Made by a program: the position numbers and the translations under genes
From: Rhizobium sp. Q54
GTDB lineage: Bacteria > Pseudomonadota > Alphaproteobacteria > UBA2966 > CAIVPW01
Assembly (NCBI GenBank): GCA_945889645.1
Contig: CAMDCA010000018.1
Span: 1 to 39,150 of the forward strand
Direction: 5' to 3'
Length of the DNA stretch: 39,150 bases
The notes under the pieces: generated by a model
Seen by the model: the letters and a program-made list of their open reading frames with translations, nothing else
Databases searched by the model: none
What the model was told of the DNA's origin: nothing
In this document: positions 22,211 through 28,260 of the stretch, in pieces
Numbering within the stretch: the first letter of the stretch is position 1
How the letters are laid out: each line of letters opens with the position of its first letter

Positions 22211-22728
22211 TGCGCGTCGCATTGCTCGTGTTGCTGAGCCTGAGTCTGGGCGTGACCAGCGCCGCCGCGCAGATCGCGGCGACCCAGATGAACACGCGCG
22301 ATCCGATTGAGATCATCGCCGACACTCTCGACGTGCAGCAGGATCGGCGTACCGCGACCTTTGCCGGCAATGTCAACGCGACCCAGGGCGTATTGCTGCT
22401 GCGCGCCGACAAGCTGCTGGTCGCCTACGCCACCGGCGGCGCACCGAACGCCATCAACCGCCTGGACGCCACGGGCCGCGTTTTCCTCTCCACGCCGCAG
22501 GAAACCGCGCAAGGCGCCACGGCCACGTACGACGTCGGTGCCGGTATCATTACGTTAACCGGTACCGTGGTACTCACCCGAGGCGAGAACGTCCTGCGTG
22601 GTGAACGATTGGTCTTGAACCTTGCGACAGGTACCAGCCGCATGGAGGGAGGAGCAGGCGCCGCCGGCGGTGATGGCCGCGTGCGGGGTCTCTTCGTTCC
22701 GACCGAGCCGGGAGCGCCAGCTCCCTAG
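22210..22728 (+). CDS. lptA: LPS transport periplasmic protein LptA
   Basis: The 172-residue protein carries a signal peptide (MRVALLVLLSLSLGVTSAAA, cleavage near 20) and an OstA-like domain: DPIEIIADTLDVQQDRRTATFAGNVNATQG, then TGRVFLSTPQETAQG and ITLTGTVVLTRGENVLRGERLVLNL. LptA polymerises into the periplasmic bridge that carries LPS to the outer membrane. It is translationally coupled to lptC and is followed 21 bases later by lptB. Confidence 0.95.
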   Translation: MRVALLVLLSLSLGVTSAAAQIAATQMNTRDPIEIIADTLDVQQDRRTATFAGNVNATQGVLLLRADKLLVAYATGGAPNAINRLDATGRVFLSTPQETAQGATATYDVGAGIITLTGTVVLTRGENVLRGERLVLNLATGTSRMEGGAGAAGGDGRVRGLFVPTEPGAPAP

Positions 22729-22749
22729 GCGCGGGCGCAATGGTCCCCC

Positions 22750-26464: not shown

Positions 26465-26944
26465 CTAGCCGGTCACCTTGATGCGCGGTCCAACGCCGCC
26501 AAGGGCGCTAGAGCCAAGACCGCTACTCGTCTTGGGGGGCGCCTTGATCTCGATCTTGCGGCTCACTTGTTCCGCTGTCGGCCGTTCGAGGTCGATGCTG
26601 AGGAGGCCGTTGTCGAGTCCGGCTCCGACGACTTCGATCCCGTCTGCCAGCACAAAGGCGCGCTGGAACTGCCGCGCAGCGATGCCACGATGCAGGAACA
26701 CGCGATTTTGGTCGTCGTGCTCCCCGCGATGCTTGCCGCGAATAACGAGTTGGTTCTCTTCCACCGCCACATCAAGGTCGTCCTTGGTGAAGCCGGCCAC
26801 CGCGATGGTGATGCGGATGCCGTTGTCACCAAGTTGCTCGATGTTGTACGGCGGATACCCATCCCCCGCCGATTTGGCAATGCGGTTCAAGGTACGCTCG
26901 AACTGCTCGAACCCGAGCAGAAAGGGACTTTCGAACAGAGTCAT
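26465..26944 (-). CDS. Hsp20/IbpA-type small heat-shock protein
   Basis: The 159-residue ATP-independent holdase chaperone starts MTLFESPFLLGFEQFERTLNRIAKSAGDGYPPYNIEQLG, typical of the alphaproteobacterial IbpA-like class. The alpha-crystallin domain (about 35-125) includes IRITIAVAGFTKDDLDVAVEENQLVIRGKH, VFLHRGIAARQFQRAFVLADGIEV and GLLSIDLERP. The C-terminal IKV of GPRIKVTG is the I-x-I/V motif for oligomer assembly. ATG 26944-26942 has GAGGAG four bases upstream. A ROSE-like structured leader precedes it. Confidence 0.95.
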   Translation of the reverse strand: MTLFESPFLLGFEQFERTLNRIAKSAGDGYPPYNIEQLGDNGIRITIAVAGFTKDDLDVAVEENQLVIRGKHRGEHDDQNRVFLHRGIAARQFQRAFVLADGIEVVGAGLDNGLLSIDLERPTAEQVSRKIEIKAPPKTSSGLGSSALGGVGPRIKVTG

Positions 26945-26998
26945 GGTCTCCTCGTCATGAGCGAGGGCGAGGGAAGACCCAAATTGGCGTCTTCCCTC
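26945..26998 (-). promoter_or_regulatory. ROSE-like RNA thermometer in the hsp20 leader
   Basis: On the minus strand the leader forms a strong hairpin with 10-base arms GAGGGAAGAC/GTCTTCCCTC (26998-26969), extended inside by CCAA/TTGG. A short weak hairpin CCTCG-N7-CGAGG (26966-26950) follows and covers the Shine-Dalgarno sequence. The segment UCGCU (26964-26960) opposite AGGA (26952-26949) matches the U(U/C)GCU/AGGA pairing of ROSE thermometers, which control small heat-shock genes in alphaproteobacteria. The fold was judged by eye. Confidence 0.6.
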
Positions 26999-27053
26999 AG
27001 CCACCTGGCACCCAGCGCCTAGTTGCACGCCGGGTACCGCAGACCATCATGTG

Positions 27054-27070
27054 GGGGGCGCCACGCCCCC
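27054..27070 (-). terminator. terminator-like hairpin after speE
   Basis: GGGGGCG-CCA-CGCCCCC has perfect 7-base arms and lies 8 bases beyond the speE stop. No long T-run follows on the minus strand, so termination may be weak or factor-assisted. Confidence 0.45.
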
Positions 27071-27078
27071 GATCAAGG

Positions 27079-28260
27079 TCAGCGCTTGGCGCGCCGCGCG
27101 GCCTTCTTGGGGGCCTTGCGGGCCGCCTTGATGACCTTGCGAGCCTTGCCTTTCGCAGCAGCCGCCTTGGGCTTGGACGCCTTGATTGCTGCGGCTTTGC
27201 GCTTCGCCGGCCGCTTCAACAGCCGTTTGGCTGGTTTGGCGACCTTGGCAGCCTTGGCCGGCTTGGGAGAGGCCGCCTTGGCCTTTGGCGCCTTCTTGGC
27301 CTTTGGCGCCTTCTTCGGCGTTACCGCCTTCGGGGCGGCACGCTTCGGGCCAGGCTGGTCGGCCAATCCCGCCCACAGCTGCTTCAGGCCGGTGCGACCT
27401 TCTTCGTGGCCCTCGGCGATCAGCGGCCGGATGTTGTTCGGCAGGGCGAAGAACGCCGCGTGCACTTCCGGGTTGTAGTGGCGCGTCTCGATGCCGCTCG
27501 CTGTCAGGCGGCGGCGGATGGTCGCGCCCGGCACGTTGGGCAGGTCGAGCGACTGGCTGGCCCAGCCGAACGCCATGTGGCCGCCGACGTAGGCCGGGAT
27601 CGGCGACAGGTACGCGCCCGCCTTCTTGAACACCTGCAGGCGGTGGTGGTGCGCCTCGCGCAACTCGTCGGGCTGGTAGTAGGACACGCCGTTCTGGGTG
27701 ACCATCAGGCCGCCCTTCTTCAGCACGCGCAGGCAGTTGCGGAAGAACGGCGCTTGGAACAGCACGATGCCGGGCCCTTGCGGGTCAGTCGAGTCGACGA
27801 GGATGACGTCGAAGCGCTTGTCGGTCTCGGCCACGTACGCGGCGCCGTCGCCGGGCAGGTTGACGGTGCGCGGATCCTCAAAGGCGCCGGCGTGATGCAG
27901 CGGCAGATGCGCGCGGCAGATGTCGATCAGCTCGCCGTCGATATCGACGATGACGACTTCCTTCACCGGGTGCCTCAGCACTTCGCGCAGGATTCCGCCG
28001 TCGGCGCCGCCGACGATCAGCACGCTCTCGACGCGGCCGTGGGCGAACATGGCCGGGTGGGTCATGCTCTCGTGGTAGTAGAACTCGTCGCCTTCGGTGG
28101 TCTGCACCACGCCGTCCAGGCACAGCACGCGCCCCAGGCGTTCGTTGCTGATGATCTCGACCGACTGAAACTTGGTCTGGCCGCGATAGAGCACGCCGTC
28201 AACGCGGATGCCTTGGCGGTAAAAGGGATACAGCGTCTCGTCGAACCAAGTGTCAGCCAT
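27079..28260 (-). CDS. speE: spermidine synthase with histone-H1-like basic tail
   Basis: The first 300 or so residues are a complete spermidine synthase, which transfers aminopropyl from decarboxylated SAM to putrescine. Landmarks are the N-terminal beta domain, GDEFYYHESMTHPAM, the cofactor site VLIVGGADGGILREVLRHP (84-89 core), IVDIDGELID, DVILVDSTDPQGPG (catalytic Asp region 156-160) and NGVSYYQPDEL. From about residue 302 to 393 the protein is a run of Lys, Ala and Pro (PKKAPKAKKAPKAKAASPKP and similar), like histone H1 or AlgP. This tail is not part of normal SpeE. The ATG is at 28260. Confidence 0.93.
   Translation of the reverse strand: MADTWFDETLYPFYRQGIRVDGVLYRGQTKFQSVEIISNERLGRVLCLDGVVQTTEGDEFYYHESMTHPAMFAHGRVESVLIVGGADGGILREVLRHPVKEVVIVDIDGELIDICRAHLPLHHAGAFEDPRTVNLPGDGAAYVAETDKRFDVILVDSTDPQGPGIVLFQAPFFRNCLRVLKKGGLMVTQNGVSYYQPDELREAHHHRLQVFKKAGAYLSPIPAYVGGHMAFGWASQSLDLPNVPGATIRRRLTASGIETRHYNPEVHAAFFALPNNIRPLIAEGHEEGRTGLKQLWAGLADQPGPKRAAPKAVTPKKAPKAKKAPKAKAASPKPAKAAKVAKPAKRLLKRPAKRKAAAIKASKPKAAAAKGKARKVIKAARKAPKKAARRAKR

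Follow-up and report, generated by a model that had tools for sequence, protein, structure and literature searches.

Does the hsp20 gene of Rhizobium sp. Q54 carry an RNA thermometer in its 5′ leader, and if so of which kind? The sequence analysed (hereafter the window) is a stretch of 39,150 nt from this organism (contig CAMDCA010000018.1, assembly GCA_945889645.1, positions 1-39,150). An original prediction, made from the letters of the window alone, had placed a ROSE-like thermometer ahead of hsp20 and had described the leader as short, formed of two hairpins only and perhaps minimal. The 159 aa product of the gene matches the Pfam HSP20 family (E = 2e-18) and its best NCBIfam match is the IbpA model (E = 6e-33, below the model cut-off). 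It shares 45% identity with E. coli IbpA, and counterparts of residues R93 and Y34 are present. On the minus strand the sequence ahead of the start codon reads ...GGCUGAGGGAAGACGCCAAUUUGGGUCUUCCCUCGCC-CUCGCUC-AUGAC-GAGGAG-ACC-AUG. The features discussed below are as follows.

27072..27077, minus strand: RpoH (sigma-32)-type -35 element CTTGAT, directly after the spermidine synthase stop codon
27049..27056, minus strand: RpoH-type -10 element CCCCACAT, aligned with congeners and family members
27007..27038, minus strand: predicted hairpin I, 12 bp, GGTACCCGGCG..., from the fold of the predicted 97-nt leader and outside the stretch first described
26966..27002, minus strand: hairpin II, stable, with a conserved bulged G at 26988 below CC/GG apical pairs, from fold and conservation
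26948..26965, minus strand: hairpin III, the Shine-Dalgarno (SD) hairpin CUC[G]CUC - AUGAC - GAGGAG, with UCGCU at 26964-26960, the bulged G at 26962 and the SD sequence GAGGAG at 26953-26948
26468..26944, minus strand: hsp20, IbpA-type small heat-shock protein (sHSP), 159 aa, ATG at 26944

We consider it highly probable (roughly 0.88) that the hsp20 leader is a ROSE-type RNA thermometer. This reading is well supported because the leader is conserved across the class, its helices covary, its promoter is of the RpoH type, and its core and computed stability equal those of E. coli ibpA.

Predicted promoter and hairpins of the leader

The gene upstream of hsp20 encodes spermidine synthase, and its stop codon immediately precedes the hsp20 promoter. 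The spermidine synthase (speE) product carries a long Lys/Ala/Pro-rich C-terminal tail (KAPKAKKAPKAKAASPKPAKAAK..., window 27079-27350, minus strand) outside the Pfam-matched enzyme domains. Comparison of upstream regions placed CTTGAT and CCCCACAT at the same position in members of the genus and the family. The promoter pattern CTTGA..CC..AT was recovered from 57 of the 106 upstream regions of homologues, shuffled sequences giving 0.6, and a search upstream of hsp20 for a sigma-70-like promoter found none. This conserved pattern indicates that hsp20 is transcribed from an RpoH-type heat-shock promoter (27077-27049). From the position of the promoter, the transcript is predicted to start near 27041, and the predicted leader is therefore about 97 nt long with three predicted hairpins.

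The lowest-energy fold of this predicted leader comprises hairpin I (27038-27007), hairpin II (27002-26966) and hairpin III (26965-26948). The description of the leader as minimal thus does not hold for the predicted transcript: the element probably has a third, 5′ hairpin, which had probably been missed because the stretch first considered left off the upstream sequence. Two-hairpin leaders of 56-67 nt are predicted in some more distant relatives (loci L008, L041 and L070). The spacer that separates -35 from -10 (window 27054-27071, minus strand), just behind the speE stop codon, is a GC-rich inverted repeat (GGGGGCGTGGCGCCCCC) with no T-run, and the congeneric loci L003-L005 show a similar arrangement of a G-run and a C-run in the promoter spacer. 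This repeat may be what is left of a terminator, or may act as an operator.

Hairpin I folds better than expected for its composition (z = -3.4), and its sequence differs between congeners. A 5′ hairpin recurs nonetheless in the unrelated sequences of L003, L004, L006, L007 and L009, and weakly in L005, and was more stable than shuffled sequences in 5 of the 6 relatives tested (z from -1.8 to -5.4). Hairpin II is the stable hairpin that the original prediction had noted, and it is indeed present (-25.4 kcal/mol; z = -5.3); 200 dinucleotide shuffles yielded no fold as good. It was rejected as a terminator, having no T-run, and a terminator scan found none. By its computed stability, hairpin II is too stable to act as a thermosensor.

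Pairing and stability of the Shine-Dalgarno hairpin

In hairpin III, UCGCU (26964-26960) lies opposite the AGGA (26952-26949) of the SD sequence, leaving G 26962 bulged. This pairing with its extra G, the core of the earlier claim, is possible at 26965-26948 and is widely conserved (see below), but it is barely populated in the stretch for which it was claimed. When exactly 26945-26998 (54 nt) is folded, the ROSE register accounts for only ~2% of the predicted structures, being outcompeted by a shifted CCUCG/CGAGG hairpin. Adding the four upstream bases 26999-27002 raises it to ~70%, because GGC/GCC then closes hairpin II and occupies the competing C residues. In the predicted 97-nt leader its share at 30 °C is ~72%; appending 30-90 nt of the coding region lowers this to 10-39% at the same temperature, the SD sequence then being mostly paired in other registers. 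From these folds we infer that hairpin II sets the register of the SD hairpin. The base before CUCGCUC is C in the window and A in the congeners L003-L005, and therefore the shifted register should be weaker in those congeners; the register competition may be special to the species of the window.

In the ROSE register, hairpin III has a computed stability of -4.3 kcal/mol at 37 °C, close to the -4.1 kcal/mol of its E. coli ibpA counterpart. The calculated penalty for freeing AGGA declines similarly in the two leaders as temperature rises. Folding at different temperatures had been suggested as a check on the thermometer. In these folds the SD sequence is mostly paired at 30 °C, and it opens only gradually between 25 and 48 °C, with no sharp switch. 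We regard this gradual opening as weak counter-evidence, because the validated E. coli leader behaves in the same way. Since the energy model yields a sharp switch for neither leader, it neither proves nor disproves heat sensing.

Conservation among related leaders and known thermometer classes

Homologous hsp20 leaders were drawn from two sources, 61 related genomes and the GTDB contig collection. The motif UYGCU, followed 3-16 nt later by a correctly placed AGGA, is present in 81 of the 108 unique hsp20 leaders, mostly across alphaproteobacteria, whereas dinucleotide shuffles give a mean of 1.0 and a maximum of 4. Of 94 SD-bearing leaders that precede other genes at these loci, 0 have it. 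Moreover, 58 of the 83 motif-bearing leaders (two duplicates included) have, ahead of the motif, a hairpin of at least 4 pairs whose bulged G sits below CC...GG, against 5.2 in shuffles.

A covariance model, R1, was built from only six leaders (seed A2); an earlier MAFFT alignment of 26 leaders (A1) had been dropped because differing loop lengths misaligned its SD side. Run over 400 kb from 100 loci, R1 returned 47 matches at E<=1. An hsp20 start follows within 60 nt of 46 of them, and the remaining one falls in one of those same hsp20 leaders. In the window's own genome R1 finds nothing but the hsp20 leader at E<=1, and the hsp20 leader is also the top R1 match of each genome in the genus and the family. 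Two further matches were taken as chance, one at window 22689-22737 (minus strand), which is antisense to an ORF, and one shared by R1 and the Rfam model ROSE_3 at G023:C1:2775600, which lies inside a coding frame.

In the model-fitted alignment, which favours the structure by construction, 95.9% of cells are paired and both-sided changes occur in 11 of 15 pairs; the motif and bulged-G hairpin counts given above were made independently of this alignment. Both-sided changes were seen in 117 cells, against 41 in shuffles, and none of 500 shuffles reached as high a value. Sliding the partner columns by 1-3 positions destroyed the covariation, giving far lower values. The signal extends to both 3′ hairpins, with both-sided changes in 8 of 9 pairs of hairpin II (93% of cells paired) and in 3 of 6 pairs of hairpin III (99.7% of cells paired).

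The Rfam ROSE models, also suggested as a check, gave a negative answer for the window itself, which they did not match at the gathering cut-off, nor at an E of 10. At the gathering cut-off they likewise gave no ROSE match in 20 related hsp20 loci, though most of these bear the motif. Low-score Rfam matches in the region (SNORD14, Guanidine-II and SNORD17) were dismissed as chance. Relatives within the genus do match ROSE_3 (RF02523), all of them below its gathering threshold of 43 bits: the congener leader L003 matches over the full length of the model at 26.0 bits, and when ROSE_3 was run on the 61 whole genomes, the top match was the hsp20 leader of the congener G004 (29.4 bits, E = 4.4e-4). 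The hsp20 leader of G030 took third place in that search. The window leader is not assignable to ROSE_3, or to any Rfam family, at cut-off. It shares with ROSE_3 the two 3′ hairpins in the same order, namely a bulged G before CC...GG and then CUC[G]CUG...CAGGAG over the SD sequence, but it obtains no score with the model and has an extra 5′ hairpin.

The founding rhizobial ROSE element, that of Bradyrhizobium hspA, has four hairpins and non-canonical core pairs. The window leader resembles it in the class of organism, the type of gene, the U(U/C)GCU/SD hairpin and the presence of several upstream hairpins, but differs in that its core pairs are all Watson-Crick, except for the bulged G. The validated ROSE-like leader of E. 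coli ibpA has the same core (UCGCU...AGGA, a bulged G, 6 pairs and a near-equal hairpin energy), and it too precedes an sHSP gene and has a sigma-32-type promoter; its upstream hairpin sequences differ, and its loop is of 4 nt rather than the 5 nt of the window.

ROSE-like thermometers are defined by U(U/C)GCU facing the SD sequence with a bulged G, ahead of an sHSP gene, in a leader of two to four hairpins (PMC3669281, PMC11342760, PMC4166951). By its sequence and predicted fold, the window leader falls within this published structural definition. Its 3′-most hairpin pairs U(U/C)GCU imperfectly with the SD sequence; an extra, bulged G (26962) stands opposite the SD sequence, though not in the dominant register when only 26945-26998 is folded; and the gene is an HSP20 gene whose leader has three predicted hairpins. 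Sigma-32-controlled transcription, which is usual for ROSE-like elements, is indicated in silico by the RpoH-type pattern. The short ROSE elements of Pseudomonas ibpA, about 61-62 nt with two hairpins, likewise have U(U/C)GCU over the SD sequence in the last hairpin and a stable hairpin before it (PMC3669281), but the window leader does not belong to this two-hairpin, ~60-nt type, its predicted length being ~97 nt with a third predicted hairpin. Nor is it a ROSE-G thermometer, which has a CUGCU motif and bulged Gs facing each other (PMC12857270), as its motif is UCGCU and the SD strand of the ROSE register has no unpaired G. A fourU thermometer was also rejected, no run of four U residues facing the SD sequence. 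The leader therefore appears as an ordinary but solid addition to the known ROSE type, with one extra hairpin. It provides a well-supported example from an alphaproteobacterial lineage in which Rfam makes no ROSE call, and the set of about 80 leaders would permit a better ROSE family model.

Proposed mechanism and alternative readings

We propose that transcription from the RpoH (sigma-32)-type promoter, which immediately follows the spermidine synthase gene, would produce a three-hairpin leader of ~97 nt. At growth temperature, hairpin III (CUC[G]CUC / GAGGAG) would hold the SD sequence and keep translation low. The bulged G and the short helix would leave hairpin III marginally stable, so that on heating it would open and allow ribosomes to bind. 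Hairpin II would stay folded on heating, its end flush against hairpin III, and would bind C residues that otherwise draw hairpin III into a more stable, shifted register.

The conserved leader, above all hairpin II and its bulged G, may instead be chiefly a site at which the sHSP binds to repress its own translation when it is not occupied by aggregates, the thermometer function being secondary or shared. E. coli IbpA represses translation of its own mRNA through the ibpA 5′ UTR, which needs R93, a residue reported to be conserved in alphaproteobacteria (PMC10474464). With this precedent, the R93 and Y34 counterparts in the window protein speak for such a site, as does the strong conservation and covariation of hairpin II despite its being too stable to sense heat. 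However, a literature search gave no binding data for any alphaproteobacterial sHSP, and in Pseudomonas thermoregulation is kept after deletion of hairpin I (PMC3669281), a result that has no bearing on protein binding. We regard autorepression as the chief function as unlikely. The thermometer and sHSP feedback are nevertheless compatible functions, and hairpin II could serve the latter.

A related and slightly more doubtful proposition is that hairpin II forms a control element of its own, distinct from the thermometer and shared by the sHSP leaders of alphaproteobacteria, either a docking site for sHSP feedback or a register clamp. If so, the leader would combine a thermometer with an aggregation sensor. 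The role of the upstream hairpins of ROSE elements has been described as not fully understood (PMC3669281), and a strongly conserved hairpin that does not melt offers a concrete target for this question.

It is very improbable that the leader simply folds without any regulatory role, its anti-SD motif owing its conservation to chance or to some other cause. The leader is rich in GC and forms structures easily, and the shifted register shows that several SD pairings are possible, but chance is excluded by the enrichment of the motif, the specificity for hsp20 leaders and the covariation. Hardest of all to credit is a coding leader, in which hsp20 would start at an upstream in-frame GTG (27028) with the hairpins inside the coding region. 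No stop interrupts the frame over the 102 nt that precede the ATG, but a good SD sequence (GAGGAG) stands just ahead of that ATG, and in 37 of 110 related leaders a stop codon falls in frame no more than 60 nt from the start. Moreover, the spacing of hairpin II and the start codon changes by 5 nt from the window to the congener L003, so that the frame is not kept.

Returning to the ROSE-type thermometer, similar motifs were seen in other leaders. A second sHSP gene of the same genome (L002 1433-1455, G000:C39) has UUGCU...AGGA ahead of its ATG and a promoter-like CTTGAA...ACCCACGT upstream, and its leader was not detected in the R1 search. From these motifs, both sHSP genes of this genome are probably under ROSE-type control. 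The leaders of L079, L083, L084, L096, L098, L108 and L111 (Roseibium loci together with L098 and L108) carry a second ROSE sub-type, GGUCGCUU...AGGACUU, whose SD helix has G-C in place of C-G as its outer pair; at the Rfam cut-off, L079 and L098 gave no call. Lastly, the leader of the second sHSP gene of another genome (L125, G008:C24, 308-400, UUUGCUUCAAAGGAG) is matched by R1 at E = 0.71, which suggests that the model reaches paralogous sHSP leaders too.
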